Below, in pieces: positions 795 to 42,120 of a stretch of DNA of 44,307 nucleotides. The notes under the pieces were generated by a model. That model was not told the origin of the DNA, made no database searches, and saw nothing but the letters and a program-made list of their open reading frames with translations. The first letter of the stretch is position 1. Each line of letters opens with the position of its first letter. Made by a program: the position numbers and the translations under genes. This stretch comes from Bacteroidota bacterium (lineage in GTDB: Bacteria; Bacteroidota; Bacteroidia; Chitinophagales; Saprospiraceae), in the NCBI GenBank assembly GCA_016234735.1, contig JACRAN010000200.1, positions 1 to 44,307 on the forward strand. The letters are read 5' to 3'.

Positions 795-933
795 GATTTC
801 GGATTTCGGATTTCGGATTTCGGATTGGGCGCCAAAACCATCAGTTTTCAGGTTCCGGCGGGTCATCCGAAATCCGAAATCCCACATCCGAAATCGTTCC
901 GGGCGGCAAATTTAAGCCGAAATCCGAATTTCC
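795..933. repeat. Heptameric quasi-palindromic repeat upstream of tRNA-Arg
   Basis: Positions 795-826 are iterations of the 7-nt word GATTTCG. Positions 865-895 carry the inverse complement (words such as ATCCGAA), and another partial copy lies at 917-933. The arms are separated by about 38 bp. The element sits between the tRNA and its likely promoter, so it may be transcribed in the pre-tRNA leader. The short reading frame it creates on the plus strand (FRISDFG words) is a product of the repeat, not a gene. Confidence 0.85.
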
Positions 934-937
934 CAAT
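907..937 (-). promoter_or_regulatory. Candidate promoter for tRNA-Arg
   Basis: The minus strand reads TAAATTTG at 914-907, matching the Bacteroidota -7 consensus TAnnTTTG. An imperfect -33 element (ATTG, 937-934) lies 19 nt upstream. It lies between the fructosamine-kinase stop and the tRNA and would give a leader of about 110 nt. Confidence 0.4.
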
Positions 938-955
938 TGCCCGATTCCGCTAATT

Positions 956-1849
956 TCAAATTAGCTGCCCCAACGCTGAACGCACCGACCCAACGTACCC
1001 GCCGCCGAACAGGTTCACATGCACCAGCAGGTAGTAAAGTTGGTACACAGGTAGCCGCTGCTCGAAGCCCGGTGCAAGCGGCCACGCCGCCTCGTAGCTG
1101 CGGTAAAACGGGCGCTCAAAGCCCCCGAACAAGCGGCTCATGGCCAGGTCCATTTCCCGGTGGGCGTAGCTCACGGCGGGGTCGATGAGCACGGGCTGCC
1201 CGGCAGTGCTGCACAGGAAGTTGCCGCTCCACAAATCGCCGTGGGTGAGGGCAGGCGGCTCGGCAGGGCACAGGTCGGGCAGCTTTTTGAAAAGTATTTC
1301 AAAATCCTGAAAATCAGCGCTTTGCAAGCGGTTCGATTGCTTTGCGAGGTCAAGCTGTGGCAGCAGCCGTTCGTGAATGTAGAACGATGCCCAGGTGTCA
1401 TGCTGGCTGTTGGATTGGGGCAGGGAGCCGATGAAATTGTCGTGGCCGAGGCCGAATTTTTCGGCGGAGGAGCGGTGCAGGTGGGCCAGACCGGTACCGA
1501 ATTTTTCCCAAAAAACGGGTGGCCGGAAGCCGGTCTCGATGAATTCGAGCAGGAGGAAAGCGCCCTGCGGCGTTTCACCGAAACCGAGGACGGCGGGCGT
1601 TCGCAGCGCCCCGGCGGAAGCCAGCAGCCCAAGTCCGGCAGCTTCCGTCCCGAACATCCGGCCAGCCTGCGGACCGGTGTTCGTTTTCAGGAAAAAACTG
1701 CCCGTCGGAGCCTCCAGCCGGAAGGCTTGGTTGATGTCGCCGCCGCTCACCGGCTGCACGGAGCGGATGTCCGTGCCGAGGATGTCGCGGCAGCGCAGCA
1801 GGATTTCGGCGGGAACTTGGGACGGCAGCATGGGCGGTTTTTGCCTCAA
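956..1849 (-). CDS. Fructosamine/ketosamine-3-kinase family protein
   Basis: This 297-residue protein has the APH-like kinase features of the fructosamine-kinase family. It shows an N-terminal GGDIN nucleotide-loop region (about residue 38), FFLKTN with the ATP-contacting Lys, and the Brenner motif HGDLWSGN (about residues 204-211). IDPAVSYAHREMDLAM follows and holds the metal-binding Asp. The C-terminus is YQLYYLLVHVNLFGGGYV. Length and motif order fit the bacterial family. Members phosphorylate protein-bound ketosamines so that glycation adducts break down; the substrate here is unproven. It starts 37 bp after the mbtH-like gene on the same strand, so the two are probably co-transcribed. 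Its stop codon lies in a small palindrome (950-966). Confidence 0.92.
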   Translation of the reverse strand: MRQKPPMLPSQVPAEILLRCRDILGTDIRSVQPVSGGDINQAFRLEAPTGSFFLKTNTGPQAGRMFGTEAAGLGLLASAGALRTPAVLGFGETPQGAFLLLEFIETGFRPPVFWEKFGTGLAHLHRSSAEKFGLGHDNFIGSLPQSNSQHDTWASFYIHERLLPQLDLAKQSNRLQSADFQDFEILFKKLPDLCPAEPPALTHGDLWSGNFLCSTAGQPVLIDPAVSYAHREMDLAMSRLFGGFERPFYRSYEAAWPLAPGFEQRLPVYQLYYLLVHVNLFGGGYVGSVRSALGQLI

Positions 1850-1886
1850 AAATGCAGCAACGGGTCAACATTTTTCAGGGAAAAAA

Positions 1887-8419: not shown

Positions 8420-8435
8420 GGGTTGTACTGCCGGG

Positions 8436-10024: not shown

Positions 10025-12598
10025 CTAAACAATTTCACTCCGCTCCCGCCACAACCTCGCTTCCACCGCACCTGCCATTGCCTCCGGTTGCAACTGCCCA
10101 CCGAGGAAATCATTGACCCGCATGGCCGCCAAAAATGGGCTTTCCACCGCTTCGGAATACGGCTGGTAAAATACTTCAACATTCGGTTTTTCCTGCGCCC
10201 AGGCTTTCACTTTTTCCAAAGTCTGTTCGTAAGATTTCACCAAATGCAACGGCAGCGTGTCCTCCCGGACAGCTTTGCCCCGAAGGGGTGAACCTTTTCG
10301 GGCGAGCATTTTTTGCTGCGAGCGCACCACTTCCAGCACGTCACGCTCCATGAAAATGACTTTGTAGCGCCAGTTCACCGGCAGGTGCGGCAGCAGGTGG
10401 GCGATGACTTTCACCGCCTTGCCGCTGGCTTGTGGCAGCCAGCTTTTGTTTTTTGCCAGATTTTTGACCGCCTCGTGTTCGTAGTAGCCGCGCAGGTTGC
10501 TCTCGTCCGCCTGCCGCTCCCGGTCAGTGAAAACCGCCATGCCGCCCGCTTCCAGCATTTGCATCATCATCGAAGTGCCGCTGCGCGGCAAGCCGCTCAC
10601 CACGACGATTTCACCCCGGATGTTTTTTTCAAAATCCAGCCGGTACTTGTTGGCCTTGCCGGGCTGCTCCAGAAATTGCGAATAAATCGAAATAAGCCGC
10701 TCCCGCGCTATGTTCATGCCGGGCGCGAGGCGAAGGCACACGTCGAAAGCATTGGCAGCGTCTTCGTAGCGCTGCATCGCCAGCAGCGTTTCGCCGAGGT
10801 AAAAATGGGCGGCGGGCTGGTAGTACATCAGCCCGATTGCCTGCAAAAACGCCGCAGCCGCTTCTTCGTGGCGCGTCATGCGGTAGCGGCAGACGCCAAG
10901 GGCATACCATGCGCCGACTTCTTCCGGGTCTTGCAAAATGGCAGCTTCGAGGACAGCTTCCGCTTCCGCCAACTTGTTCATTTGCAGGTAGGCATTGGCG
11001 ACGCGCTGACGCAGGTGGGGCTGCCCGCCCGCTTCCTTTTCCACTTTTTGAAACAGCGCCAGCGCCTTGAGCGGGCGCTCCTCTGCCAGCAGCAGTGTGC
11101 CTTCCAGCACGTCCAATTGCGGGTTTTCCCGGTCGAATGTATCCCGGATGTGGTTGACAACCTGCCTCGCTTTTTTGAATTTTCCGACGTTTTGGCAAGC
11201 ATTCGCCAAGTACGTTGCGAAGCGCAGAACGGACGGGTTCTCGCCGTGAAGTTTTTCCAAAAGCCGGATGCCTTCGTCCCACTGCTGTCCGTCGAGGTAA
11301 GCACGGGCGAGGTTAAAGTTGTTTTCGTCCAGCGTTTCCTTCACGGCTTTCCCCAGGTCGCCGCCGGGGTCGGCGATGTAGCCGAGGTCAATGAGCTGCT
11401 GCAATTCCGCTTGCATGTCCTCATCGCTCTGTTCGATACTCGAAATCCGACATCCGAAATCCGACATCCGAAATCCTTCCATGTTTTCCCAACTTTGGAT
11501 GGTCTGGATTTCCGGCTCGCTTTCAAACGCCTGCACGAGCACCTTGCCGTCCATGTCCTCTGCCACGGGCAACCCGAACAAGGTGAGCAGCGTCGGCATC
11601 ACGTCGAGCAGGCTGGCACCGAACAGCAGCTCGTCTTTTTTGATGCCGGGACCTTGCATCGCAATGATGCCGAACGGGCTGTGCTCGATGGCGGGTCCCG
11701 CAGGTTCCTTCGGGATGGATTTCGGGCGGTTGTGGTCGGGGTGGAAGCCGTGGTCGCTGATGAGCATGACCGTCGTGTCGTCGCCTGCCAGTTGGAGCAG
11801 GCGGGCGAGCATCATGTCGTGGAACCGGTACCCGCTCGCCACCACGTCCTTGTACAATTCAAAATCCTGCATGGAAACATGTTCCCGGCGTGGCGGGTGA
11901 TATTTCATGAAACCATGGCAGAAGTGGTCGATGGCGTCATAATAAACGGCCATGAAATCCCATTCCTCATTTTCCAAAATATAGGTGGCTGCGCTGTGAA
12001 TGGTGGAACAGTCGGCGATAACTTTGGCGATGGAGGTCAGCCGCCGGTCTTTTTTTTGGTCGATTTTTTCAAAACCCGGCACGAACGGCTGGATGTGGTT
12101 GCCCGTCAGTTCGTGCGGATGCACCCTGAGTTTTGCAAAAAAATCCGCCTTTTCGGCGGGATGCACGGTGCCTTTCACCAAGTTCCAGGGCTGACCGGGG
12201 CGCATTTCGGCTCGCTGGTAAAAATTGGAAATCATGTTGCCGTTGACCGGCTCGGCGGGGTGCGAGGGCCACCAGCCGACGACGTGGGTTTTCAACCCGT
12301 GCTGCGTCAGGATGTTCCAGATTGCCTTGCATTTGCGGCTGGTGTTGTAAATTGGGCGGATGCCCTTGCCGCTTGGGTCGGGTTCGGTGAAGCCGTGGAT
12401 GCCGTGCTTGTAGGGCCGCTTGCCGGTGGCGATGCTCGTCCAGAGCATGGGCGAGAGGGGCGGGTCGAGGGTTGCCATTTTGCCCTTCACGCCACCTTCG
12501 ACGAGGCTTTGCAAGGCAGGCATCAGCCCCTCGTCCATGAGCGGGTTGATGACTTTCCAGTCGGCGGCGTCCCAGCCAATGAGGAGGACTTTGGACAT
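10025..12598 (-). CDS. Alkaline-phosphatase-superfamily + TPR + sulfotransferase fusion
   Basis: The 857-residue protein has three parts. Residues 1 to about 370 are a type I phosphodiesterase/alkaline-phosphatase-like domain: GWDAADW at the N-terminus, LSPMLWTSIATGKRPYKHG with the nucleophile region, YYDAIDHFCHGF and SDHGFHPDH as metal ligands. About 390-620 are TPR-like repeats (FYLGETLLAMQRYEDAANAF). About 655-857 are a sulfotransferase-like domain with the PAPS-binding P-loop VVSGLPRSGTSMM. No signal peptide is seen, so it is probably cytoplasmic. A role in making or trimming a sulfated or phosphorylated extracellular polymer is possible but unproven. A heptameric repeat is inserted in frame at the first domain junction (about 374-387). 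Another repeat touches its start codon. Confidence 0.88.
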   Translation of the reverse strand: MSKVLLIGWDAADWKVINPLMDEGLMPALQSLVEGGVKGKMATLDPPLSPMLWTSIATGKRPYKHGIHGFTEPDPSGKGIRPIYNTSRKCKAIWNILTQHGLKTHVVGWWPSHPAEPVNGNMISNFYQRAEMRPGQPWNLVKGTVHPAEKADFFAKLRVHPHELTGNHIQPFVPGFEKIDQKKDRRLTSIAKVIADCSTIHSAATYILENEEWDFMAVYYDAIDHFCHGFMKYHPPRREHVSMQDFELYKDVVASGYRFHDMMLARLLQLAGDDTTVMLISDHGFHPDHNRPKSIPKEPAGPAIEHSPFGIIAMQGPGIKKDELLFGASLLDVMPTLLTLFGLPVAEDMDGKVLVQAFESEPEIQTIQSWENMEGFRMSDFGCRISSIEQSDEDMQAELQQLIDLGYIADPGGDLGKAVKETLDENNFNLARAYLDGQQWDEGIRLLEKLHGENPSVLRFATYLANACQNVGKFKKARQVVNHIRDTFDRENPQLDVLEGTLLLAEERPLKALALFQKVEKEAGGQPHLRQRVANAYLQMNKLAEAEAVLEAAILQDPEEVGAWYALGVCRYRMTRHEEAAAAFLQAIGLMYYQPAAHFYLGETLLAMQRYEDAANAFDVCLRLAPGMNIARERLISIYSQFLEQPGKANKYRLDFEKNIRGEIVVVSGLPRSGTSMMMQMLEAGGMAVFTDRERQADESNLRGYYEHEAVKNLAKNKSWLPQASGKAVKVIAHLLPHLPVNWRYKVIFMERDVLEVVRSQQKMLARKGSPLRGKAVREDTLPLHLVKSYEQTLEKVKAWAQEKPNVEVFYQPYSEAVESPFLAAMRVNDFLGGQLQPEAMAGAVEARLWRERSEIV
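11441..11476. repeat. In-frame heptameric repeat in the phosphatase fusion
   Basis: CGAAATC and CGACATC alternate with an exact 7-nt period for five units. On the minus strand it codes for FRMSDFG-type residues between the phosphatase and TPR domains, in the same frame as the whole gene. The word matches the repeat beside tRNA-Arg (795-933). Confidence 0.88.
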
Positions 12599-12599
12599 G

Positions 12600-12664
12600 A
12601 TATTGGAATTAGGAGATTGGAAATTGGGGAAATTGGAAATCAGGCGGTTGGAAATGGAATTGGG
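12600..12664. repeat. Heptameric direct repeat at the phosphatase start
   Basis: Iterated words such as GATATTG, GAATTAG, GAGATTG and GAAATTG start 2 bp upstream of the phosphatase ATG (12598). They run into the 3' end of the preceding small gene. Related words in inverse orientation lie at 12843-12906. Confidence 0.75.
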
Positions 12665-12842: not shown

Positions 12843-12906
12843 GATATTGAGAAATTTGAAATTCAGCGACAATAATTTCTAATTTCTCAATATCCAATTT
12901 CTAATC
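12843..12906. repeat. Heptameric quasi-palindrome overlapping a stop codon
   Basis: Arms at about 12843-12862 and 12874-12894 are inverse complements with one mismatch over about 20 bp, built of 7-nt words such as TTCTAAT and TTCTCAA. The right end supplies the stop codon (12901-12903) of the T9SS gene. Confidence 0.8.
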
Positions 12907-18919: not shown

Positions 18920-21790
18920 TCAATGAAGTAACACGATTTTTTCAAGAAAGCGGCCTGTACCGTTCCACGCTTGCAACGTGTAAATGCCCTCCGCCAGGTC
19001 GCTGACATCCAGTGTTTGAGTGCCACTGCCACACGATGCCGTGTGTACCAGTTGCCCTGCCGGACTGAACAACCGCACCGTGGTTGTTTCCTCCGAGTTT
19101 TCAGATAAAAACAGCGTTAGTTCGCCACTGCTGGCGGGGTTTGGGAAGACCCTGAGATTTCCGAAATCTTGAAGATTTCGGAAATCTACGCTCACCACCT
19201 TCGACAACTCCTCGCCCCCGTCGAAGTCCGTTTGCCGGAGGCGGTAGTAGTTCGTGCCGGGCAGCGGTTTTTCATCCAAAAAAGAATAGTCGTGCGTCTC
19301 GCTCGTCGTGCCTCTGCCAGCGACGAAGCCAATCTCCGTCCATCGTCCACCGTCTCCCGTCATCCGCTCGACGTGGAAGCCTTCGTTGTTCAGTTCGCTG
19401 GCGGTTTGCCATTCCAGCAGAACGCCGTTCTCCATTTCTCTTCCGGTAAAGCTGACCAACTCCACGGGTAGCGGTGAGGTGACAGTTACCCTGACGGTGT
19501 TCCCGCCGGGGTAAGTCACGCTGACACCAGTCACGTTGCCTGCGCCGGTGTTGGCGAAAGTGATGTTCCCACCCGAAAACGTGCCGCTCACCGTGCCTGC
19601 CGTGAGCACATCGAAGGTGGCACCGTTGGCGGCGGCGTAGCCGAAGATGAAATGGATTTTGGAAGAAGCGCCGATGGTCGCTGTGCCGCTGATGGCGAGG
19701 TGGTCGTAGTTCGTGCCTTGCACTGTGCCGTTGATTTCGCAGTTGTAAGTGGCGCTGCCGAGGTCGAGCGAGCCGGTGACGGTAAGCTTGCCGGGGCTGT
19801 TGCCGGGGTTGACGGCGGCGGTGGCGCTGTTGGTAAACGTGCCGCTTTGGGTGAGTGTGCCGATGCCATTGAAAGTGGCGTTGTTCGTTGCCGTACCGCC
19901 GGAATTGACGTTGAAAAAGTTGTCGGAATTGCCCACCGTCACCGTGCCGTCATTGGTGAAAGTCGAGCCGTTTTTCACCGTGAAATTGCAGGTGCCGGGC
20001 ATTGTCAGGGAGCCGGTCGAGTAGTTGTTGAAAATGCCCGAAGTGCCTGCGGTACGACTGACGAATGAACCGTAATTGTTGAGCGTGCTCGAAGCGCCGA
20101 GTTGGATTTGAGCGCCATTGCCGCCGTCGGTTATCGTGCCACCCGCGTTGTTGTTGACGGTGCCTTGCCAGGTGCTGCCTGTGCCGGCGTGCATGGTTCC
20201 GCTGTTGTTGATGGTGCCGCCAACATTGAAAGTCTCGGCGCAGGCAGGGCAGGAATAGGAGCCTCCCGAAAGGATATTCAACATTCCGCCTGAATTGTTG
20301 GTCATGTAAAATGCCGTGTAGCTGCCGGAAATGTCCATCGTGCCGGCATTGGTGATGCGCCCCTGCGAGATGGAACCGCTTGCCTGCACGGTCAGCGTTG
20401 CCCCGGAGTTGATGGTGATGAAAGTATTCAGGCTGGGGCTGAGGGCTTTGCCGCTGTTGACGGTCAGGCTTGTTCCCGAAGGGAAGGAAATCGTCACGTC
20501 GTTCATCGTGCAATTGGCGGCGATGACGACGGCATCGCCGCTCGCTAAACTCGTCGGGACGGTTCCCGTGCTCCAGTTCGAGGCAGTTGCCCAATCGGAA
20601 TTGGTGGTGCCATTAAAGTTGTAGTTCGTAAAGCCCGTGCCTTGCACGGCAAAATTGTAATCCGCCTCGTCGCAATCGTTGTTGTTCACATGGATGACCG
20701 CCGAGCGGGTTCCCGATGCTGTTGGTGTAAACGTAGCAATGAAAGTCGTGCTGCCACTTCCACCGATGGTCGCTGGAAGCGAAATGCCTGATACGACAAA
20801 CTCACTTGAATTGGTGCCTGTCACCGTAATTGTACTGACGGTTAAATTTGATGTTCCTGTATTTTGAATGGTAAAAGTTCGCTGAAATGAGCTGTTCACG
20901 GCGACCGAGCCGAAGTCGGTATGGTCGGCGGTGGAGGGCGTGTTGTCGCCGTCGGCGATGCTTTGTCCGTTGCCTTGAAGATTGATTTCGGGGAGACTCG
21001 GCGAACAAGCGCCACCCGTGATGCCACCCGGCGCTACGAAATTGGAGGTCGCGCCGTTGAGCGCAAAATTGAACAGCGTCGCGTCGTTGGCGCCGCCGAT
21101 AAGCGTTGCGTCGTCCGTCAGGGCCGTGATGCCCGTGTTGTCGCCGCCCGCCGTGCCTTGGTTGCATTTGAAATAAACCTGCAGATTGTCCGAAGTCGCC
21201 GAAACCTCGCAATCTTTCAATTGTGAAATCTCGTCGGCGCAAAGTGTGCGGTTCCAAAAACGGATGTCGTCCATGCTCCCCAACAAGTTGGTCGTGCCGT
21301 TCGCATAGAGCGAGCTGCGACCGAGGTAGCCCGCCGAGCCAAAACTCGCCGCGCCTGATTGGGTAAACGTGGCTACTTGCACGCCGTCAATATAGCATTT
21401 CGCCTCCTGCCCAACGCCTGCCCACGTCATGGCGACGTGCTTCCAACTGCCGCCCGTGAACGAAAGGGCAGCGGACTGGCTGCCCACTCCGCCAGCGCGG
21501 AAATAAATGCTCGAACCGTTGCTCCAAAGGAAAATGGCGGTGTTCTCGCTGCCTATTTCGGTCAACATCGAGGCGTTGTTGGGCTGCGAGGCCTCCGCAT
21601 TCATCCAAAAAGAGATGGTGCCCGCTGTCGCCGTCATGCCCGAAGTCGAGAAGCTGGCGTAATCGTCCGTGCCGTCAAAATGGAGGGCTTCGCCAGTTTG
21701 TGTGAAACCGCTGTTTGTTGCGAAAAGGAAACCCGCCATCAGGCAAGCGGCGACCATATTTTTAGTGAAAAGGTGTAACAATTTTTTCAT
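18920..21790 (-). CDS. Secreted LamG + choice-of-anchor-D + repeat protein with T9SS sorting domain
   Basis: This 956-residue protein has a signal peptide (MKKLLHLFTKNMVAACLMAGFLFA). A LamG/concanavalin-like domain follows (about 33-230; LHFDGTDDYASF, GSMDDIRFWNRTL). Next is an ASPM/SPD-2/Hydin-like Ig domain (about 270-390; DFGSVAVNSSFQRTFTIQN, NNDCDEADYNFAVQG). A beta-repeat region follows (about 400-720; NNSGTMHAGTG words). It ends with a fibronectin-like segment and a T9SS sorting domain (FPNPASSGELTL, LDVSDLAEGIYTLQAW, EKIVLLH). The last 170 residues nearly match the protein at 2324. It is predicted to be a surface or matrix protein, perhaps carbohydrate-binding through LamG. It heads the eight-gene exported run, with an operator-like repeat array and interleaved palindromes upstream. 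Confidence 0.92.
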   Translation of the reverse strand: MKKLLHLFTKNMVAACLMAGFLFATNSGFTQTGEALHFDGTDDYASFSTSGMTATAGTISFWMNAEASQPNNASMLTEIGSENTAIFLWSNGSSIYFRAGGVGSQSAALSFTGGSWKHVAMTWAGVGQEAKCYIDGVQVATFTQSGAASFGSAGYLGRSSLYANGTTNLLGSMDDIRFWNRTLCADEISQLKDCEVSATSDNLQVYFKCNQGTAGGDNTGITALTDDATLIGGANDATLFNFALNGATSNFVAPGGITGGACSPSLPEINLQGNGQSIADGDNTPSTADHTDFGSVAVNSSFQRTFTIQNTGTSNLTVSTITVTGTNSSEFVVSGISLPATIGGSGSTTFIATFTPTASGTRSAVIHVNNNDCDEADYNFAVQGTGFTNYNFNGTTNSDWATASNWSTGTVPTSLASGDAVVIAANCTMNDVTISFPSGTSLTVNSGKALSPSLNTFITINSGATLTVQASGSISQGRITNAGTMDISGSYTAFYMTNNSGGMLNILSGGSYSCPACAETFNVGGTINNSGTMHAGTGSTWQGTVNNNAGGTITDGGNGAQIQLGASSTLNNYGSFVSRTAGTSGIFNNYSTGSLTMPGTCNFTVKNGSTFTNDGTVTVGNSDNFFNVNSGGTATNNATFNGIGTLTQSGTFTNSATAAVNPGNSPGKLTVTGSLDLGSATYNCEINGTVQGTNYDHLAISGTATIGASSKIHFIFGYAAANGATFDVLTAGTVSGTFSGGNITFANTGAGNVTGVSVTYPGGNTVRVTVTSPLPVELVSFTGREMENGVLLEWQTASELNNEGFHVERMTGDGGRWTEIGFVAGRGTTSETHDYSFLDEKPLPGTNYYRLRQTDFDGGEELSKVVSVDFRNLQDFGNLRVFPNPASSGELTLFLSENSEETTTVRLFSPAGQLVHTASCGSGTQTLDVSDLAEGIYTLQAWNGTGRFLEKIVLLH
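19155..19187. repeat. In-frame palindrome, second copy
   Basis: This is the same 33-bp element as at 2556-2588 (two AGATTTCCGAAATCT-type arms), in the same position relative to the sorting domain and again coding for [11 protein letters not shown]. Confidence 0.85.
19336..19366. repeat. In-frame heptameric repeat in the LamG protein
   Basis: Words CCGTCCA, TCGTCCA, CCGTCTC and CCGTCAT follow each other with a 7-nt period. They code for the MTGDGGRW segment where the paralogue at 2324 has SSDGAAW. The word is the same as in the histidine kinase at 24102-24211. Confidence 0.75.
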
Positions 21791-23251: not shown

Positions 23252-26200
23252 TCATTCCAAATACTCCGACGGGTACTTCCCAAACCGCTCCTTGAACTGC
23301 CGGGAAAAATGCTCCACCTGCCGGAAGCCCACCTCGTAGGCAACGGCTTTGACGGAGCGGCCCTCCCCCGTTTCGAGCAGCAGGCGGGCCTGGCGGAAGC
23401 GGGCCTCGTCGAGGTACTGGGCAGGGGTCAGCCCGGTCAGTTTTTTTACCTGGCGGAAAAACTGCGCCCGGCTCATGGCGAGGGCGTCGGCGAGGGTTTC
23501 TGCGGTGAGGCTGGAATCGGAAAGTTTGCCGTTGACGAGGTGTTCGAGGCGCTCCAGCCAGTCAATATCTTCTTTCGTTTGATTGACGATTGATCCCGAC
23601 TGAAGTCGGGAACGATTTACGATTGCTTCAGTTGCCGGTTCCGGTTCCCCCAATCGTAAATCGTCACTCGTAAATCGGAAATCCGCTGACCGTTGCCTGT
23701 AATTCTTCAACAAATTCTCCACCCTCAACAGCAATTCTTCTTCTTCAAACGGCTTGAGCAGGTAGTCGTCCACGCCGATGCGCAGCGCCCGCAGCTTGTC
23801 CTGTGCGTCCGCACGGGCGGTGAGCATTACGACGGGGATGTGCCGCCAGCGGTCGTCGCCCTTCAGTTTTTCGAGCAACTGAAAGCCGTCCATCACGGGC
23901 ATCATGATGTCGGAAAGGATGAGGTCGGGCAAGTTATGAGTTATGAGTTTTGAGTTTTGAGTGGCACCACTCGTAACTCCTGACTCAAAACTCAAAACTT
24001 CCAAAGCGGTCTGCCCGTTTTCGGCGGTGAGGACATTGTATCTTTCTGAAAGTAAGGTTTGGATGTAATCCCGCAGGCTGGCGTTGTCCTCCACCACTAA
24101 AACGGATGACGGATGACGGGAGACGGTGGACGGAGCGGTAATTGTGCCAAGTTCCTGATTTTCAACCACATCGTCCTCCCCGTCCACCGTCTCCCGTCCA
24201 CCGTCCACCGTAGTTCCCATAATTTCCTTCCTCGGAATTTCCACGAAAAACGAACTGCCCCGGTCGGGTTCGCTTTCCGCCCAAACCTTGCCCTGCATCA
24301 GTTCCACGAGTTCCCGGCAGAGCGCCAGGCCAATGCCCGTGCCGCCCTCAGTCGCCGCCCCCGGCTGGTTGGTTTGGTAGAACCGGTCGAAAACATGCGG
24401 CAAATCTTCCGGGTGGATGCCCCTGCCCGTGTCGCTGACCGTCAGGCGCAGGCTGTGGGCGAGGTCCTCGACCACCACCGACACGCTGCCCCCGGACGGG
24501 GTAAATTTCAGCGCATTGGACAGCAGGTTGTTGAGGATGGTTTCCAGCTTCGGGGCATCGAGTTGAAGTTGCAGCCCCCGCTCGGCTTTGTATTGAAACG
24601 AAAACCGGATGCCCTGCCGCTCGGCGTGGCTCTCGAACGCCGCCACGATGCGCCGCAGGAACGGGAACAGCGCCACCGAGGCTTCTTGCAATTCCAATTT
24701 GCCCGCCTGCACCTTGCTCAGGTCGAGGATTTGGTTGACCAATTTGAGCAGCGACTTGCCATGCGTTTGGGCGGTTTTCAGGAACGTAAAGTCCTGGTTT
24801 TCAAGGCGGTTGCGCTTGAGCGCCGAACCGATGGGGCCGAGCACGAGCGTCAGCGGGGTGCGCAGTTCGTGACTGACGTTGGCGAAGAAACGGGACTTCA
24901 TTTCGTCCAATCGGCGCAGTTCGTCCGCCTGTTTTTCGATGAGGTTTTTTTGCTCCGCAATTTGCCGCCTGCCCTGCCGCTGTTTCAGGAACGCATAAAA
25001 CGCTCCGGCGAACAGCAGGAACAGCGCACCCGCCAGCCCGAACAGCAGCCAGCGTTGGCGCTTTTGTTGCGCCAGCAAAATCTCCGTCTCGCGGGTGCGC
25101 AGGCGGGTTTCCATTTCGGTGAGCAGGGCGGAGTTGCGGTTGGTGTAGCCCTTCACCTGCTCGTTGAACGCCTTGCGGTAGTATTCCAGGGCCAGTTCCC
25201 GGTCGCCCAGCTTCTCGGCGATTTCGGCGTAGGTCTGGTAAAAATAGCCCAGTTCCGCCTTGAAGTTGCAGTAGGTTTTGGCCGAATCCATCATTTCCAG
25301 CGCTTTCACGAAGTTGTTTTTCTGCATAAAAACACCGGCCAACTGCTCGTACATGTTTTGGGTCAGGCCACGGTCGCCCAGGGTCTTCGCCAACTCGATG
25401 GAGTGCATGGAAAGCGGCAGGGAACGGTCGAAGTCGCCCTTGTTTTGGAGGTAAATCCCCAGCAGGCGGACGCATTGCATCCGGCTTTTCAGGCTGGCAT
25501 TCGGGCGCAGGAGCGCAACGGCTTTTTCGGTGTAATCGAACTCCCTGCCCACCTGCGGCGTACCGTCGTAGCTGAGGCCGATGGCCGTCAGTTCCGAAAT
25601 CATGGCGGCGGTGTCCCGCAGGTTTTCATAGATTTCCAAAGCCTGCAGGTGGAAGGGCACGTTCTTCTCCGGCACCACCATGTAGAGGTCCCTCGATGCC
25701 CGCCCGATGACACCCAACGCCTTGGCTTCCAGCAGTTTATCGTTTTCGTTCCGGGCAATGGCGAGGGCCTCCTGCGCCAGCCGCAGCGTCTCGTCGAACT
25801 GTTTTTTGCCATGCACCACCCAGGCTTCGGCGAGGTTGGCCCAGCCCTTGAACTGGCCGTGTTTCGTGGCAAGGGCTTGGAGTTGGCGGGCTACAGTGAG
25901 CGCAGAATCCTGGTACTCGAAGGCGTTGAGGGTGCGGGATTTTTCAAACAGCCATTGCAGGTGGCCGCTTTTGTTTTTTTGGGCAAAAGGCTCCAGTTCG
26001 TCGAGCAGTTGGAAGGCGCATTTTTCGTCGCCCTGCTCCCGCATCGTTTTCACATCGGCCAGCCAGCGCTGTATTTCAGGATTGCCAAGTTCCCGGATTT
26101 CGTTTTGGAGCGATTGCAGCGGACAGGGCAGCACCGTGAGGGGCAGGGGCAGGATTTCTTGCTGAATTTTTTGAAAAAGTGCGCCGACCCGCGCTTGGCT

Positions 26201-33407: not shown

Positions 33408-35183
33408 TCATTTGGCAATGACGAAGCGTCTGGTGATGTTTTCGCCATTGGAAATAGCGCTCACGAAATAGATGCCACTGCCGAAGCGGTTGTCATCTAA
33501 GCTGACTTGAGCAGCCACCTGACCCTCTTCCAACCTTTCTGTCCAAACCACCCTTCCGAGTTGGTCTTGAATGGTCAGCATGACGGCTGATTCCATGCCG
33601 TGCAGGTGGATGTTGACTTCGTTGCCGGCAGGGTTCGGGAACAGTTCGAGTTCGATGCCAGTAGCAACTGCCATGGCATCGCCAACGGGAGCTATCATGT
33701 TCTGACCGCAAGAGGCGTTGCCGCATGGGCCGATGTAGTCGCCGTGGTTGATATGCGCCTGAACGGCACTGTAGCTGATGCAGAGCGTGTTGTTTCCGTT
33801 GTGGCAGACAGAGACTTTACTGTTGTTGTTTCCGCACTTCCACGCTGCGATGATTTGGTTGAAAGCAGGCGGGTATTTACAATCGGGCAAACCGTCGTTG
33901 TTGTTGTCCACCGAGTCATCGCCGCCGGGGCAAACGTCGCAGGCATCGCCGACGCCGTCGCAGTCGCTGTCGGTTTGAGAAGGATTGGCGGTGTTGTCGC
34001 AGTTGTCGTTGCAATTGGCAATTCCGTCACCGTCGTTATCCGTATCCGCTACGCCGCAGCCACACTGTCCGGGAGCAATTTTGTTCGGGTCGTTCGGGCA
34101 GCCGTCGTTGCAGTCCGCCGTTCCGTCGCCGTCCGTGTCAACATCGGAAACACCACAACCACAGATGCCGGGAGCGGTTTTGTTCGGGTCAAGCGGGCAG
34201 CCGTCGTTGCAGTCGGCCGTGCCGTCGCCGTCCGTGTCAACATCGGAAACACCACAACCACAGATTCCGGGAGCGGTGTTGTTCGGGTCGTTCGGGCAGC
34301 CGTCACAAGCATCGCCCGTGCCGTCGCCATCCGTATCCGCCTGGTCGGCATTGGCATCGTAAGGGCAGTTGTCTTCTTCGTCGCAGATCCCGTCGCCATC
34401 ACCATCGGAACAACTACCAATGTCTGTTCCGCAGACATAGTTAGAGGTAGTTCCCGTCAATGCCAGATTTGTAATGGTGGCATCATTGCCGCTGCCCGTT
34501 GATGCCAAATTAGGCGTAACCGAAATGCTAGTGTTGTTCCCATTTGGAACTCCCTCATTAAAATCATAATAAACGAGCAGGCCACTTTCGCTTCCTGATA
34601 GGTGCGTGTTCATTGTAGCTTGGATGTCCGCTTGCGATCGTGCGATGTTCCAAATGCGCACTTCGTCAACAGTTTGATTTGAGTGTAGGACAAAAACCCG
34701 TTCTGATGACACGAGATGTCGGCGATTGATGGATACTACACTGCTTGAGCCGGTACCGTCTAAATTTCCGTCCACGTATATTTTGGCAGCAGTGGGCCCC
34801 GTACCGTTCACGACCATTGCTATATGATGCCATTGATTGTCGCTTACGTTAGTAGCTCCATTTACGCTTATCCCATCGGTCCCCCTCACTTTTCCTGTGC
34901 CATCCCAATTCAATTGCGTACGTGAACCAGAACCTCCAAAAGGGCCAAAATCGCTTGCCGTGATGATGCCCCTAAATCCGGAATTAATTACAGAAGTCTT
35001 GAGCCAACACTCCCAAGTGAAGGTAGTCCCCACATTTATCAAACTGTTTGTAACGAGCCTGTCGTTTGTACCATCGAAATGCATGGCGACGCCATCGCAT
35101 TGTGCGGAAACATTGCTGAATGTTTGAAGGACAAAGAGTGAGGCAATTAAGAAGTTGCGAAAAAAGAAAATGCTTTTTTTCAT
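33408..35183 (-). CDS. Secreted LamG + thrombospondin type 3 repeat protein with T9SS sorting domain
   Basis: The 591-residue product has a signal peptide (MKKSIFFFRNFLIASLFVLQTFSNVSA). A LamG-like domain follows (about 30-240; MHFDGTNDRLV, DEVRIWNIARSQADIQATM). Several calcium-binding thrombospondin type 3 repeats come next (about 258-415; DTDGDGTADCNDGCPLDPNK, GICGCGVSD). A Cys module follows (KVSVCHNGNNTLCISY, HINHGDYIGPC). The T9SS sorting domain ends it (FPNPAGNEVNIHL, GSGIYFVSAI, RRFVIAK). Calcium probably stiffens the stalk between the LamG head and the cell-surface anchor. The LamG part of the gene is more A+T-rich than the repeats. It follows the small membrane gene at 35278. Confidence 0.93.
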   Translation of the reverse strand: MKKSIFFFRNFLIASLFVLQTFSNVSAQCDGVAMHFDGTNDRLVTNSLINVGTTFTWECWLKTSVINSGFRGIITASDFGPFGGSGSRTQLNWDGTGKVRGTDGISVNGATNVSDNQWHHIAMVVNGTGPTAAKIYVDGNLDGTGSSSVVSINRRHLVSSERVFVLHSNQTVDEVRIWNIARSQADIQATMNTHLSGSESGLLVYYDFNEGVPNGNNTSISVTPNLASTGSGNDATITNLALTGTTSNYVCGTDIGSCSDGDGDGICDEEDNCPYDANADQADTDGDGTGDACDGCPNDPNNTAPGICGCGVSDVDTDGDGTADCNDGCPLDPNKTAPGICGCGVSDVDTDGDGTADCNDGCPNDPNKIAPGQCGCGVADTDNDGDGIANCNDNCDNTANPSQTDSDCDGVGDACDVCPGGDDSVDNNNDGLPDCKYPPAFNQIIAAWKCGNNNSKVSVCHNGNNTLCISYSAVQAHINHGDYIGPCGNASCGQNMIAPVGDAMAVATGIELELFPNPAGNEVNIHLHGMESAVMLTIQDQLGRVVWTERLEEGQVAAQVSLDDNRFGSGIYFVSAISNGENITRRFVIAK

Positions 35184-35527: not shown

Positions 35528-35597
35528 AGTTATGAGTGATAAGTTATGAGTTATTTAGCGACACACGGTTCGTAACTCATAACTCAAACCTCATAAC
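35528..35597. repeat. Heptameric quasi-palindrome overlapping a stop codon
   Basis: The left arm repeats GTTATGA and GTGATAA; the right arm has GTAACTC, ATAACTC and ATAACCC. Both keep a 7-nt period. The right end provides the stop codon (35591-35593) of the regulator. The word is the same as in the receiver domain at 23931. Confidence 0.85.
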
Positions 35598-37357
35598 CCC
35601 GAAGCGGTTTTCTTCCGAAGCCGCTGTCCCGTTTTATAGACGGTGTTGAGGGAAACCCCCAGCATGTTCGCCATTTCGTGGGCGCCGAGACCGAGTTTTT
35701 CCAGCACGAGGAGGCGCAGTTCGGCGGGCGTAATATCAGGATAGGCAGTTTTTTGTTCGGCGATGAAATCGGGGTGTACCTTCTCGAACACGGCCCGGAA
35801 CTGTGACCAGTCCTCCTCGGTGAGGATGACGGAGTGGGTGAGCTGCTCCAGGTATTGGCTGCGCTCGCCGGAGCGGGAGAGTTTTTCGATTTCGAGGCGC
35901 AGGTTTTCCACCAGTTCAGATTTTTCCCGGAAATTTTTGGTGAAGGTTTCGAGGTCGTTTTTGGCAGACTCCAGTTCCGCTTCCCGCTGGCGGCGCAGGT
36001 GTTGCTGGCGGTGAAACCAGCCGAATGCCAGCGCCAGCACGAGCGCCAGGATGAGCAGGGCGGCGTTGCGCAGCCATTTTTGCAGTTCCTTTTCGTTTTC
36101 CACGAGGCGCAGTTGCTCGGTGTATTTCTCGGCATCGAGGCGCTGCTGTATCTGCTCGAACTTGCGGGCGTCGTTGCGGCGGTCGAGGCTGTCCTGCAAG
36201 GTTTGGGCGAGGCGGGTGTAGCGCAGGGCGGCGGCGGCATCGCCCCGCAGTTCGTAGTACCGGGCGCAGTTGTTGTAAAATTTGAGGGGCTCAAAATAGT
36301 ATTGGTCAATTTTGGCGTCTGTGTCCAACTTTTTCTGAAGCTCCTCTGCCCGGCGGATGAGGACGGCAGCTTCGTCCAACTTGCCCGTTTTCAACTTGAT
36401 GGCGAGCAGCACCTGCGAGGCGTCGTACTCGCCCCGCAGGGAAGCGAAGGGGCGACCGGGGTAGCCCGCCTTGCTCGACTCATAGCCCTCGTCGGCATAC
36501 TGCTCGCCCTCCTCCAGCTTGCCCTGCTCGGCGAGCATGCTGGCGATGTCGAGCGAAGCGAAACCCTCCCAGAACCGCCGCCGCCATTCGGTTTCCGGGT
36601 GGGTAGTGACGAGTTCCCGGCTGAATTGCAGGATTTTTTGGGCATATCCGATGGCTTTTGGATAATCTTTTTTCCGTTGATAATACGTCTCCAAGTAGTT
36701 GAGGACGAGGATGGTGTGGTACTGCCCTTTTTCCGTGAACTGAATGAAACGCTCCGCCACGCCGAGGTACTCGAACATTTTCTCCAAATCCTCCAGCCCA
36801 TACATGAACTGGCTCAGGTCAAACAGGATGCCTTCCCCCTCGTAGTCCCTGAATTGCTCGAAGCCCAGATCCTCCATGCGCCCGAAGGTGTTCAGCACCT
36901 CGGTGTACTTCTGCTCGATGGGAATTTCATTCAGGTCGTATTTTTCAAAAACGATGTAGTGACGGGCTACGACCGTTTCCACCTCCCATTCATGTGCGGT
37001 CGCCAATACTTCCATTTCCGACAGCAATTGCAGGATGTCCGCTTGCTTCAATTTCAGCTTGCTTCGTTGGTGGTATTGGTGGAGCTTCAGCGCAAATGCG
37101 GTGCGGGAGTCGTTTTTTGCCGCTGCGATGGGGAGGAATTGGCGGAGGGCAAGCGAGACGGTGGCGGAGTCCGATTTCCAGAAAGGAAAATCCCGAGCGA
37201 AGGCGAAGCGCTGCGCCGGGGACATGGAGCGGAACGCCTGCTCGCCCAAAACGGGCGGCTGGGAAGGGTTCGACCCGCCTTCCTGAGCATTCAAAGGAAG
37301 CAACAGCACGGCGTTGAAAGCACCGCAAAGAAGGGACAGAAAGCAATTTTTAGTCAC
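35591..37357 (-). CDS. TPR - transmembrane - coiled-coil - HTH regulator
   Basis: Start GTG 37357 (MTKNCFLSLLCGAFNAVLLLPLNAQ) was chosen to match the paralogues; an in-frame GTG at 37378 is possible but overlaps the -7 box. The 588-residue protein has a TPR-like periplasmic region (about 40-420), a membrane helix (about 430-450, ALLILALVLALAFGWF) and a coiled coil. The block VILTEEDWSQFRAVFEKVH and HTH LGAHEMANMLGVSLNTVYK (about 550-572) follow. It is nearly collinear with 31070. It is likely a membrane-bound regulator, with the small membrane gene (35278) and the T9SS gene (33408) downstream. Confidence 0.88.
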   Translation of the reverse strand: MTKNCFLSLLCGAFNAVLLLPLNAQEGGSNPSQPPVLGEQAFRSMSPAQRFAFARDFPFWKSDSATVSLALRQFLPIAAAKNDSRTAFALKLHQYHQRSKLKLKQADILQLLSEMEVLATAHEWEVETVVARHYIVFEKYDLNEIPIEQKYTEVLNTFGRMEDLGFEQFRDYEGEGILFDLSQFMYGLEDLEKMFEYLGVAERFIQFTEKGQYHTILVLNYLETYYQRKKDYPKAIGYAQKILQFSRELVTTHPETEWRRRFWEGFASLDIASMLAEQGKLEEGEQYADEGYESSKAGYPGRPFASLRGEYDASQVLLAIKLKTGKLDEAAVLIRRAEELQKKLDTDAKIDQYYFEPLKFYNNCARYYELRGDAAAALRYTRLAQTLQDSLDRRNDARKFEQIQQRLDAEKYTEQLRLVENEKELQKWLRNAALLILALVLALAFGWFHRQQHLRRQREAELESAKNDLETFTKNFREKSELVENLRLEIEKLSRSGERSQYLEQLTHSVILTEEDWSQFRAVFEKVHPDFIAEQKTAYPDITPAELRLLVLEKLGLGAHEMANMLGVSLNTVYKTGQRLRKKTASGL

Positions 37358-37377
37358 AGGTGATAGGTCACTTTCCA

Positions 37378-37385
37378 CAAAGATA
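37378..37385 (-). promoter_or_regulatory. -7 promoter box of the regulator at 35591
   Basis: TATCTTTG on the minus strand ends 20 nt before GTG 37357, in the conserved context shared with 26326 and 32853. Confidence 0.7.
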
Positions 37386-38877: not shown

Positions 38878-38909
38878 TTGGAGCAATCCGCCCAGGCTTC
38901 TTACTTTTA
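38878..38909 (+). promoter_or_regulatory. Candidate promoter of the propeller sensor kinase
   Basis: TTGG (38878-38881), 20 nt, then TACTTTTA (38902-38909) is one base off TAnnTTTG. It would start transcription about 10 nt before GTG 38926. Confidence 0.4.
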
Positions 38910-38925
38910 TCTCTTAAAAAAACAC

Positions 38926-41900
38926 GTGCAAAAGCTGGCGGCATATCTCCTGGCATCCTTCCTGGCGGCTTCGACGGCGGAGGCGCAGCCCTTCAATTTT
39001 GTTCGCTACACGGTGGACGACGGGCTGCCATCCAACACCGTCTATTCGCTCGTGCAGGACAACCTCGGCTACCTCTGGATGGGCACGGCGGACGGGCTGT
39101 GCCGCTTCGATGGAACCTCGTTCACTTATTTCAGGGAGATGCCCGGCGAGGTGAATACCGTCAAAGGCGAAAAATTCCTGACGCTGCGCAAAGACCGCTC
39201 CGGCAATATCTGGGCGGGCACGGAAAACAGCGGGCTGAATTTCATCAGCTCCAAAACCGGGGAAATCACAAACTACCAGTACGCTCCCGGCGACACGGCC
39301 TCGCTCAATTCCAATCAAGTCACCTGCATTTTCGAGGACCATCGGGGCAGGCTCTGGGCAGGTGCCCAGGGGCTGAACCTGCTCGACCGGCAGAGCGGGC
39401 GCTTCCGCCGGGTGCTGCTTTTCAAGGACGAGGCAGCGCTGAAAAAGTACAACGGCTGGCAACTCGAATTCCTCGATTGGGCGCAAGACCCCGCCGACAG
39501 CGCCGTCGTGTGGCTGACCGCCGCTTACGGCATCTGCCGCTTCAACGTGGAGACTTTTGAAGCCCGGTACTTCTTTCCTTCCGATAAACCAATTGCCTTC
39601 AGAGCGTCCTTCCTCGACGACGACGGCTTCTTGTGGCTGACCGACTGGGGCACCGGCTTGCACCGCTTCGACCTCAGCGAGGGGACTTTCGAGCTTTTTA
39701 AATGCGGCGCAGGCGGCAGTGACGTTTACGGCTGCCAGAACGCCGCAGGCATCATGCCTTTTGACAAAAACCGCCTGCTGGTGGCGTCCGAGAACGCAGG
39801 CTTGATGTTTTTTGAAAAAAAATCCGGCCAATTTACCCACCTCTCCGGCTTGCCTTTGCAAAACGAGCTGCCGACCGCTCCCCGGCAATTCTTCAAAGAC
39901 CGGGACGGAAATTTGTGGATAACCACCATTGACAACGGCTTGTACTGCCTGCAGCCGCAGCGCCAGGTTTTTAAAAAAACACCCCTCGAAGGCAACATTC
40001 TGCAAGCCATCCGGCATCCCCTCGAAGACCGGGTGTACGCTTGCTCGGAGGAGGGGGTTTTGTATGTTTTGGATGAAAAAAAACTGCGGGTAGAAGCCTT
40101 CTCCGACCCTGCTCCTTCCGTGCCGAACACGCCTGGCTTGGCTGATTTGGCGGTCGGCAAAGACGGGCAACTTTGGATTTTGGGCTATCACGACCTGTAC
40201 AACTGGCAGAAAGGCGACCTCTCCCTGAAACCCCTCGCCTGGCAAAGCTGGAAAAAGGCACTTGGAGCTTATGGCTACTTTTGGGACTTCGCTTTCGACC
40301 GGCAAAACCACCTTTGGATGAGCACCCAGAGCGGCGGCCTGGGGCGGCTCGGCCCGGAGCGGCAAACGGTTCAGATTTACCGCTTTGAAAAGGATAACCC
40401 CCACTCCCTCGCCCATGACTATTCCATCAGCCGGATTTTTGTGGACAATAAAGACAACGTGTGGGGCGCTACCGCCAATGCTTTTTTTTATTACGACAAG
40501 AAAAACGGCCTTTTTTTCAACTCGCCCGAACCACCCGCCGTGTCCGGCGGGGGAAGGGTGTTCACCGGCAGCAGGGGCTTCGCCCAGGACAAGGCAGGCA
40601 ACATTTGGATGACCGCCGGGCTGAACCGCATTGGCTTCGTCCGCCCCGGCGACCCGGTTGACGCGCCCGTCCACATCGTAAAAACCAGTGTGCCGCTGCC
40701 TTCTGCCAGGGTTTGGGGAATGCTGGCCGGCCCCGACGGCAACATTTGGATAGGTTCCGATGCCGGGTTGACGAGAATCAACCCGAAGACTTACGCCGCC
40801 GAACACTACGGCGAAGCCTACGGGCTGTCTGCCGTCAACAACCTGAGCCTCGCTGCCAACGGCGAAATCTTCGCAGCAGTTTCGGGCGGCTTCTTCCGCT
40901 TCCATCCCGACAGCGTGGCGCTCCCCGCCAAAGCGCCCGTGCCTGTGCTCACCGGCTTCAAGGTGTTCGACAAGCCTTACGGCGACGGCATTGCGCCCTC
41001 CTTTTTGGAAAACGTGCGGCTGAGCTACCGGCAAAACTTCTTCTCCTTCGAGTTCAGCGCGCTCGATTTCACGAGCAAGGGGCGGAAAGAGTTTTCCTAC
41101 AAGCTGGAAGGCTTGGAAAAGGACTGGGTGATGGCGGGCGAGCGGCGCTACGTCGCTTACGCCAATCTGCGCGGCGGGGATTATGCCTTTAAAGTAAAGG
41201 TGAGAAACGAGGCGGGGCATTGGAGCGAACCGTTGTCGCTGCCCATTCGCATCATTCCGCCCGTTTGGGAGCGCTGGTGGTTTTGGGCGCTCGTGCTGCT
41301 CTCGCTGGCATCCGCTGTTTATGGCATTTACCGGTACCGGGTCAGCCAGATACGGCGGGAGGAGGCGATGAAAACCGTCTTCCACAAGCAATTGGCAGAG
41401 ATGGAAATGAAAGCGCTGCGGGCACAGATGAACCCGCATTTCCTTTTCAACTCGCTCAACGCCATCAAGTTTTATGTTTTAAAAAGGAGCAAGGAAAAGG
41501 CGGCGGATTACCTCACCGATTTCGCACGGCTCATCCGCTTGGTGCTGCACAACTCCTCACAGCAACTCATCACGCTGGAGCAGGAGCTGGAGGCGCTGGA
41601 ACTTTACATCCGCATCGAGCGCCTGCGCTTCGACGAGCAGTTCGATTTTGAAATAAAAACGGAGCCGGAAGTGGATGCCGAAAATTTTCTCATCCCTCCG
41701 CTGCTTTTGCAGCCTTACGTGGAAAATGCGATATGGCACGGCTTGATGCACAAGAAGGACGGCAAAGGCAGGCTGCTCGTCGGGATTGAGCAGGAAAACG
41801 GCGCCCTTCGCTGTGTCATCGAGGACAACGGCATCGGCAGGGAAAAGGCGAGGGAGGTGAAAAGCAAGTCCGCCCAGCGCAGCAAAAGCATGGGCATGAG

Positions 41901-42036
41901 CATCACCCGAAACCGCATGAACATCAGTCAGCTTTTGACCAACATGCACTTCGACGTGCAAATCGAAGACCTCGTGGACCCGCAGGGCAATGCCGCCGGA
42001 ACGAAGGTGGTCATTTCCATTCGCTCGAATGTCTGA
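38926..42036 (+). CDS. Beta-propeller / Y_Y_Y sensor histidine kinase (LytS-type)
   Basis: The preferred start is GTG 38926 (MQKLAAYLLASFLAASTAEA, a signal peptide); a TTG at 38878 in the same frame would add 16 residues. Of 1036 residues, about 20-690 form two-component-regulator propeller repeats (FVRYTVDDGLPSNTVYSLVQD, GYLWMGTADGLCRFD, GNLWITTIDNGLYCL). A Y_Y_Y domain (about 700-775; FSYKLEGLEKDW, YVAYANLRGGDYAFKVK) and a membrane helix (about 783-805) follow. The His_kinase domain has MNPHFLFNSLNAIKFY (phospho-His about 836) and a HATPase with PYVENAIWHGL and DNGIGREKA. It should sense an extracellular ligand and phosphorylate the LytTR regulator that follows 83 bp later. Confidence 0.93.
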   Translation: MQKLAAYLLASFLAASTAEAQPFNFVRYTVDDGLPSNTVYSLVQDNLGYLWMGTADGLCRFDGTSFTYFREMPGEVNTVKGEKFLTLRKDRSGNIWAGTENSGLNFISSKTGEITNYQYAPGDTASLNSNQVTCIFEDHRGRLWAGAQGLNLLDRQSGRFRRVLLFKDEAALKKYNGWQLEFLDWAQDPADSAVVWLTAAYGICRFNVETFEARYFFPSDKPIAFRASFLDDDGFLWLTDWGTGLHRFDLSEGTFELFKCGAGGSDVYGCQNAAGIMPFDKNRLLVASENAGLMFFEKKSGQFTHLSGLPLQNELPTAPRQFFKDRDGNLWITTIDNGLYCLQPQRQVFKKTPLEGNILQAIRHPLEDRVYACSEEGVLYVLDEKKLRVEAFSDPAPSVPNTPGLADLAVGKDGQLWILGYHDLYNWQKGDLSLKPLAWQSWKKALGAYGYFWDFAFDRQNHLWMSTQSGGLGRLGPERQTVQIYRFEKDNPHSLAHDYSISRIFVDNKDNVWGATANAFFYYDKKNGLFFNSPEPPAVSGGGRVFTGSRGFAQDKAGNIWMTAGLNRIGFVRPGDPVDAPVHIVKTSVPLPSARVWGMLAGPDGNIWIGSDAGLTRINPKTYAAEHYGEAYGLSAVNNLSLAANGEIFAAVSGGFFRFHPDSVALPAKAPVPVLTGFKVFDKPYGDGIAPSFLENVRLSYRQNFFSFEFSALDFTSKGRKEFSYKLEGLEKDWVMAGERRYVAYANLRGGDYAFKVKVRNEAGHWSEPLSLPIRIIPPVWERWWFWALVLLSLASAVYGIYRYRVSQIRREEAMKTVFHKQLAEMEMKALRAQMNPHFLFNSLNAIKFYVLKRSKEKAADYLTDFARLIRLVLHNSSQQLITLEQELEALELYIRIERLRFDEQFDFEIKTEPEVDAENFLIPPLLLQPYVENAIWHGLMHKKDGKGRLLVGIEQENGALRCVIEDNGIGREKAREVKSKSAQRSKSMGMSITRNRMNISQLLTNMHFDVQIEDLVDPQGNAAGTKVVISIRSNV

Positions 42037-42037
42037 T

Positions 42038-42120
42038 GCTGTTGGCATTTGGCTATTTGCTATTGGCTTTTCGAGGCTAATGGCTAACAGCCAAATGCCA
42101 ACAGCCAATAGCCAATAGCA
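42038..42120. repeat. Heptameric quasi-palindrome between sensor and regulator
   Basis: GCTGTTGGCATTTGGCT (42038-42054) pairs exactly with 42089-42105, and TGCTATTGGCT (42058-42068) pairs with 42110-42120; the two pairs are interleaved. Words such as TTGGCAT, TTGGCTA and TTTGCTA follow a 7-nt period. The last base is the A of the regulator's ATG. Confidence 0.85.

Follow-up and report, generated by a model that had tools for sequence, protein, structure and literature searches.

Heptameric tandem repeats have been described in several groups of bacteria. In the study by Rehm et al. (2015, PMC4692102), the GGGAATC heptamers of Xanthomonas are dispersed arrays in which four units are commonest; 89-93% are intergenic, and the bias towards four units was linked to G-quadruplexes. 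Two genomes contain 70 and 75 close convergent pairs, always on opposite strands, and the single or paired type of a locus is usually kept between two species; for the heptamers of Nostoc, the same text reports few paired repeats (PMC4692102). In Beggiatoaceae, cyanobacteria and Bacteroidetes, MacGregor (2015, PMC4679880), who also cites earlier surveys of long simple repeats, describes direct repeats of TAACTGA; they are patchy in distribution and are located mostly just upstream of start codons, with 169 direct sets versus one indirect repeat in the main genome. Here, we have analysed a contig of 44,307 bases (C118, referred to as the window) of the Saprospiraceae genome G000 (4.88 Mb, 359 contigs), in which short arrays of 7-nt words occur at many places, several of them together with an array of the inverse complement.

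The comparison with the described systems reveals both likeness and difference. The arrays share with those of Xanthomonas the heptameric unit, the four-unit peak, the dispersal and the convergent pairs. The initial annotation had presented the palindromic pairing as unlike known repeats, and this has to be corrected, since convergent heptamer pairs had already been described in that genus (PMC4692102). In contrast to the single G-rich word there, the words found here run to dozens, GG-free ones among them, neighbouring arms may have different words, copies are found in frame within proteins, and homologous sites carry different words. Thus, what is already known is the four-unit heptamer and the convergent pair; what is different here is the number of words and the presence of arrays within protein-coding genes. 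With TAACTGA, our arrays have in common the heptamer, the patchy occurrence over distant groups and indels of 7 nt, and they differ in that TAACTGA is one word. The short tandemly repeated repetitive (STRR) sequences of cyanobacteria, including GGGGA(C/T)T of Nostoc, share the period of 7, and a plasmid sample of Kovacikia indeed shows this period (20 arrays in 300 kb). Two cyanobacterial plasmids, sampled over 400 kb, contained no complementary pair and so offered no polarity to compare. Literature searches by title and abstract, in which subscription journals are largely uncovered, retrieved no many-word convergent heptamer pairs in this group and no turnover inside proteins.

The observation is real and general, and the explanation that we favour, which we hold to be about evenly poised between right and wrong, is that the loci are very short elements dispersed over the genome and undergoing concerted evolution. 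Our confidence in it is reduced by two points: half of the non-complementary pairs are nearly complementary, and the case for whole-unit copying is built on one family. The polarity and length rules described below are the strongest results, and the mechanism of mobility is the weakest point.

Arrays were scored with +1 per match at a distance of 7 and -2 per mismatch, and Tandem Repeats Finder was used as well; both scans recover period-7 arrays at the places that the initial annotation had named. At a score of at least 8, the window contains 16 period-7 arrays and four complementary inverted pairs; 100 first-order Markov shuffles have 0.81 arrays on average, three at most, and never a pair. 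The observation is thereby confirmed: in the window, 7-nt periodicity and inverted pairs with this period exceed those of shuffled sequence. At this loose score, for which the shuffles cover period 7 only, the window also has nine arrays of period 6, seven of period 9 and six of period 12, none of them in pairs. At a stricter score, period 7 ranks first among periods 4-15 in three of four sequence sets of G000; the exception is the window itself, with four arrays of period 7 behind six of period 15. In 20 stretches picked by contig number (191 kb), there are 14 arrays of period 7, six of period 14 and five of period 8, and no period-7 array is left when each stretch is shuffled once. All four sets have more period-7 arrays than their shuffled versions. 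A tandem 7-nt unit is in excess over other periods, as in the arrays of the type defined by Rehm et al. (2015). Our sample of G000 (794,966 bases, about 16% of the genome) consists of the window and three sets of 20 stretches, only one of which was chosen purely by contig number; part of it was chosen for holding GATTTCG on either strand, a bias that bears on the count of this word. It contains 155 arrays with a score of at least 12, made of 37 words, the commonest being GATTTCG (51), the GATTTAC type (13), GGGAATT and AGGGATG (10 each) and GAGTTAT (9), which substantiates the idea that the loci use different words of which some recur at distant places. Among 56 pairs of neighbouring arrays in G000 at most 60 bp apart, 42 are complementary, two direct and 12 neither.

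The arms have a narrow length distribution. In G000, it peaks near 29-33 nt, mostly four to five heptamers: 82 of the 182 arrays with a score of at least 10 round to four units and 54 to five. The number of units is similar whatever the G content of the word: the share of arrays with a length of 26-35 nt is 60% for words lacking GG (52 arrays), 63% for words with GG (97) and 73% for those with GGG in the cyclic word (33). The arms of a pair also have a fixed polarity. In 41 of the 42 complementary pairs of G000, the 5' arm is the G-rich strand, with one tie and no pair in C-first order. Since a pattern that requires GATTTCG before CGAAATC itself fixes the orientation, the 48 stretches of named genomes that it returned give no support for the polarity of this word, and GATTTCG was left out everywhere from the count over all 169 sources. 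This count comprises 57 G-first pairs, one C-first pair and two ties, from 34 words and without duplicates: 27 G-first and one tie in G000, 15 G-first and one tie at the loci of named genomes found by the GATTTCG pattern, 10 G-first and the one C-first pair in 40 stretches of other phyla (from ten genomes found by the same pattern), and five G-first in 20 stretches of the same genus. The 20 number-chosen stretches of G000 contain four complementary pairs, three G-first and one tie. Close pairs therefore converge on opposite strands, and of 47 inverted pairs at most 200 bp apart, 40 have spacers of 0-24 nt; the others are 38, 48, 75 and 112-115 nt long.

The polarity does not appear to depend on the complementarity of the arms: Non-complementary neighbours are G-first in 11 of 12 cases in G000 (one same-strand), in four of six in the same genus (one C-first, one same-strand) and in seven of 11 in other phyla (two C-first, two same-strand). 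The period of 7 is dominant, not absolute. A minor octamer class in G000 also forms inverted pairs and follows the rule less well, its 10 complementary pairs being six G-first, two C-first, one same-strand and one tie. Examples with GGTTTGAG and TTTCATTG, mostly, not always, G-first, are found in G000 at L042:8329, L060:5819, L068:3207 and L082:4827.

Dispersal of whole units is evident for one family. The irregular 22-mer GATTTACGANTGACGATTTACG is present in 37 copies in G000, reversed controls giving none, and occurs in nine of 13 genomes searched (eight of the 12 besides G000). The conserved part around it is about 32 nt long and is followed by unrelated flanks, as read in 34 distinct contexts of the 77 matches. 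Exactly one more heptamer precedes it in 22 of the 34 contexts, none in seven and more than one in five, and ATT, often with a subsequent G, follows directly in 31. The unit is found both single and paired, at many unrelated loci. In pairs of exact GATTTACGANTGACGATTTACG, the arms agree in the variable base in only one of six cases in G000 and in all three in other genomes. Thus, the GANTGAC family, to which this unit belongs, at least disperses as whole units.

Many arrays are located within proteins. Sixteen of the 42 complementary pairs in G000 lie in frames that are open through them, as judged, in sequence without gene annotation, by a minimum of 50 codons ahead of the pair and 30 behind it. 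This applies to 12 of 14 GATTTCG pairs and to four of 28 pairs with other words, a test that favours GATTTCG because this word is free of stop codons in all six frames. Thirteen genomes of the same genus were compared with G000 over a 16-kb region of contig C16. This region contains a frame of 3,231 codons with ketoacyl-synthase, acyltransferase, aminotransferase, condensation, AMP-binding, PP-binding and thioesterase matches, which is predicted to encode a hybrid polyketide synthase/nonribosomal peptide synthetase (PKS/NRPS)-type protein. Eleven sites, 10 in this frame and one in a neighbouring open reading frame (ORF), have arrays in three to seven genomes each and in 11 genomes overall. The same loop often carries different words in different genomes, often in the same direction: The array polarity agrees in 129 of 185 cross-genome comparisons at shared sites, a bias that may stem from selection on the loop peptide. 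Homologues without arrays exist as well, for example in G002, G003 and G005. Near L046:1600, the genomes G001, G004, G007 and G012 have another palindromic element with arms like ACACGGACTGCCAGTCCGTG, and the same loop has heptamer arrays in G000, G008 and G009.

The clearest case of change in place comes from G001 and G013, which are 85% identical over 11 kb of the region homologous to C16. One array shares place and register in both, with TGATTGG in one genome and GGATTGG in the other in all four heptamers, and with three further differences besides this recurrent T/G base. This is concerted evolution within an array, and it was clearly seen once; a second array is identical in both genomes, G000 having a similar irregular array at that site, and two more shared sites have diverged without so clear a pattern.

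Could the arrays be functional structures kept by selection, such as the G-quadruplexes proposed for Xanthomonas and Nostoc or the regulator-binding arrays proposed for TAACTGA? The G-rich strand, the preference for four units and the positions between genes would fit this idea. However, a word with GGG, as expected for G-quadruplex-forming arrays of the type of Rehm et al. (2015), is present in only 33 of the 182 arrays, and 52 have no GG at all. Since words without GG, such as GAGTTAT and GATTTAC, share the unit number and the pairing (15 of 42 pairs), G-quadruplex formation is unlikely as a general reason, and the many arrays in protein loops and the different words in each species argue against functional structures as well. 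We consider this explanation very improbable.

A simpler process would be local: replication slippage iterates a word in place, the newly made G-rich strand folds back on itself at a hairpin and serves as the template for the complementary arm, no element moves, and words recur due to mutation bias or selection. Some pairs have a variant heptamer in mirrored position in both arms, and aligning the arms by their inner ends gives a better fit than shifts by 7 in 57 pairs, a worse fit in 26 and an equal one in five (88 informative of 116 pairs; sign test 0.0004). The concerted change in G001 and G013, the lack of a common enzyme and the limited sharing of most irregular arrays (see below) are in line with such a process, and it might even account for the G-first polarity, provided that self-priming is limited to nascent strands rich in G/T. 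Yet it does not readily produce an irregular 32-nt unit in 37 copies, adjacent arms with different words and preserved polarity, pairs of this unit in G000 that mostly differ in the variable base, or arm lengths with a single peak rather than an open-ended range. Simple hairpin copying as the sole origin was rejected, as neighbouring arms can have different words and independent variants. The initial suggestion of template switching at hairpins is thus supported by the mirrored variants but is not supported as a general origin, and we regard slippage with fold-back copying as rather unlikely to explain the arrays.

Several findings weigh against short elements that are copied as whole units. 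Their spacers are, by eye, mostly unrelated between copies. Six of the 12 non-complementary pairs of G000 are only two letters off complementarity; the other six are five G-first and one same-strand. Words that share a site resemble each other only slightly more than after permutation (2.27 versus 2.50, permutation p 0.0035). Irregular 24-mers shared across the array sample are not above a heptamer-permuted control (56 versus 26-96), and whole-unit copying therefore rests on the GANTGAC family. No target-site duplication has been established, the homologues (66-85% identical) being too distant for exact insertion ends. Finally, no mobilising enzyme was found. A reverse transcriptase match (RVT_1, E <= 1e-6) is absent from G000, which is 99% complete, and from G003, G004, G006, G009, G012 and G013 (completeness of G006, G012 and G013 78-85%), in a search that could miss divergent reverse transcriptases; five genomes of the same genus without such a match carry arrays. 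Y1 transposases (E <= 1e-5) have two matches in G000 and none in G002, G004 and G013, of which the latter two bear arrays. Arrays occur within 600 bp of three of 20 Y1 genes, about what is expected by chance (22% at the array density of G000), and none are found near four further Y1 genes.

These searches also bear on two other proposals. Repetitive extragenic palindromic (REP) elements and their doublets that form hairpins (REPINs), which are associated with REP-associated tyrosine transposases (RAYTs), are short dispersed units that occur as singlets and as inverted pairs with variable loops. Elements of this type or miniature inverted-repeat transposable elements (MITEs), moved by a transposase, be it a RAYT (Y1 HUH type) or another, would account for dispersed singlets and inverted pairs, and G000 has its two Y1 matches; on the other hand, the arms are built of tandem heptamers, the words differ, and the arrays are not linked to Y1 genes, so that we judge this origin improbable. 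Palindromic elements of Rickettsia are similarly palindromic and inserted in frame within genes; they are longer and are not known to be heptameric. Addition in the manner of telomerase would involve a reverse transcriptase that carries a short RNA template and extends the two 3' ends of a break with G-rich heptamers prior to rejoining, and a mutation in the template would alter the word and leave the period unchanged. This would predict that pairs are G-first, that their arms may differ in word and that one-sided addition leaves single arrays, and DRT10 provides a precedent for telomerase-like repeat synthesis in bacteria: The tandem-repeat words are system-specific, the repeat length varies (9 nt in Eco3DRT10), and the product is extrachromosomal single-stranded DNA (PMC12632851). 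Both systems have tandem-repeat DNA in common, but G000 lacks the corresponding RVT_1 match. Moreover, there is no consistent gradient of purity, as the deviation is 0.037 at the outer and 0.053 at the inner end in G000 and 0.060 and 0.047, respectively, in other phyla, so that arrays are not generally purest at the inner end, and a unit with a fixed irregular heptamer requires copying of DNA rather than iteration of one template. Telomerase-like addition is therefore very improbable in our view.

The GATTTCG word is patchy in its distribution. The exact palindrome was found in 48 stretches of named genomes, by title from Bacteroidota, Acidobacteriota, Chloroflexota, Pseudomonadota, Planctomycetota, KSB1 and Desulfobacterales, and the named records are often bins of Saprospiraceae and Chitinophagales. 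Most matches in other phyla are metagenome bins, for which misbinning is possible, and two are Algoriphagus isolates. A 25-nt single-arm pattern matched six of 395 genomes drawn from the phylum, and a 21-nt pattern matched nine of 40 relatives, all of the same genus, G000 being included in both counts; these low rates indicate the patchiness. De novo sampling of stretches by contig number revealed period-7 arrays in seven of ten genomes of other phyla, with many words of their own. A vocabulary common to the phyla was rejected: Among 17 genomes with the GATTTCG palindrome, the GAGTTNT pattern is present in only two, as GAGTTCT or GAGTTGT, and words other than GATTTCG are thus mostly lineage-specific. 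In G016, of the same family, CCAATCA arrays (e. g. C31:81684 and C41:314167) have well over ten units and thus differ from the four-unit arrays of the window's genus. A Pyrinomonadaceae bin (L108:5484-5942) has a row of heptamer hairpins with similar spacers, possibly an element duplicated together with its spacer.

The loci of the window illustrate these features (see table). The initial annotation had most of its ten loci consist of a word and its inverse complement; by eye, this is the case for six (795-895, 23613-23683, 23932-23999, 24102-24211, 35528-35597 and 42042-42119), whereas 11441, 12600 and 19336 are single and 12843 is a hairpin of looser build, in which the score comes from a part of the 3' arm only. 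Four loci (795, 23932, 35528 and 42042) pass the automatic test for complementary pairs; 24102 fails because its two arm words differ by two letters. The possible locus at 22045 turned out to be an ordinary hairpin without period, only 16 of 44 positions matching at distance 7. The arm at 11441 lies in a variable loop with a net gain of 12 nt compared to three homologues. In the pair at 23613, the 5' arm is short, with only about 1.5 words, and the 3' arm carries the dispersed unit GATTTAC-GANTGAC-GATTTAC. The pair at 23932 adds about 17 residues compared to the relative in PDB 12aw, and its loop has different heptamer arrays or none in the homologues, possibly paralogues, of other genomes.

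Table. Heptameric arrays and pairs in the window, with strand and genomic context.
Feature	Position	Strand	Context
5' (G-rich) arm, GATTTCG x4 + GATT, 32 nt	795..826	+	4 bases beyond tRNA-Arg gene (716-790, minus)
3' (C-rich) arm, partner of the 795..826 arm	865..895	-	spacer 38 nt
Single arm, GATTTCG/GATGTCG alternating	11441..11476	-	inside Phosphodiest-TPR-sulfotransferase ORF (10025-12598, minus)
Degenerate TTGGAAA-type single array with indels	12600..12640	+	just upstream of the start codon of ORF 10025-12598
Loose heptameric hairpin	12843..12905	+	overlaps 3' end of ORF 12901-14181 (minus)
Single C-rich arm, CCGTCCA word	19336..19361	-	inside ORF 18920-21790 (minus)
GATTTAC-word pair	23613..23683	+	open frame between receiver and HTH_18 domains, hybrid histidine kinase
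GAGTTAT-word pair, ~70-nt hairpin	23932..23999	+	in frame, receiver domain of hybrid histidine kinase
GACGGTG/GACGGAT arms, 46-nt spacer	24102..24211	+	in frame between HATPase_c and receiver domains
GAGTTAT-word pair	35528..35597	+	overlaps 3' end of ORF 35591-37378 (minus)
TTGGCTA-word pair	42042..42119	+	fills gap between sensor kinase ORF (38878-42036) and LytTR response-regulator ORF (42120-42887)

The window also contains repeats of other kinds. An array with a 15-nt period at 17561-18129, in ORF 17385-18278 (minus), looks like a pentapeptide-repeat protein. A perfect two-copy direct repeat of 46 bp with an internal inverted repeat (AACCTC...GAGGTT) is located at 30960-31051, and tandem repeats of about 99 nt and about 102 nt, probably within ORFs, are present at 34068-34334 and 43962-44306, respectively.

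In the explanation by short dispersed elements that evolve in concert, the unit would be a sequence of about 29-33 nt, i. e. four to five heptamers, with one G-rich strand, and several families of such units, each with its word, would coexist in a lineage. Whole units would be copied to new places, singly or in twos, the latter with their G-rich strands facing each other across a spacer, which gives every pair the form of a hairpin. In place, a base change would spread through the heptamers of an array by slippage or conversion, and the word would thereby change while place, length and direction are kept. Within genes, only in-frame, stop-free copies would survive, mainly in tolerant loops. 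The period, the length, the polarity, the recurrence of the irregular unit, the in-frame positions, the differing words at homologous sites and one concerted change are direct observations; whole-unit copying may extend to all words, and insertion may be transposition-like or templated. It is tempting to speculate that the arrays form a broad, hitherto unrecognised class of mobile elements of about 32 nt with a 7-nt period and fixed convergent pairing, which occurs in some seven phyla, rewrites loops of conserved proteins, and includes the heptamers of Xanthomonas and perhaps those of Nostoc and Beggiatoaceae; this generalisation is doubtful, and we put it forward tentatively.

So far, heptameric arrays have been explained differently in each group, by slippage, by G-quadruplexes or as regulator sites. 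The convergent polarity and the narrow arm length hold over many words, and any single explanation must meet both; the two rules argue against G-quadruplexes as a general cause. Through the in-frame copies, conserved enzymes can acquire new sequence in their loops and alter it, and the units, if mobile, would rank among the smallest mobile DNAs.

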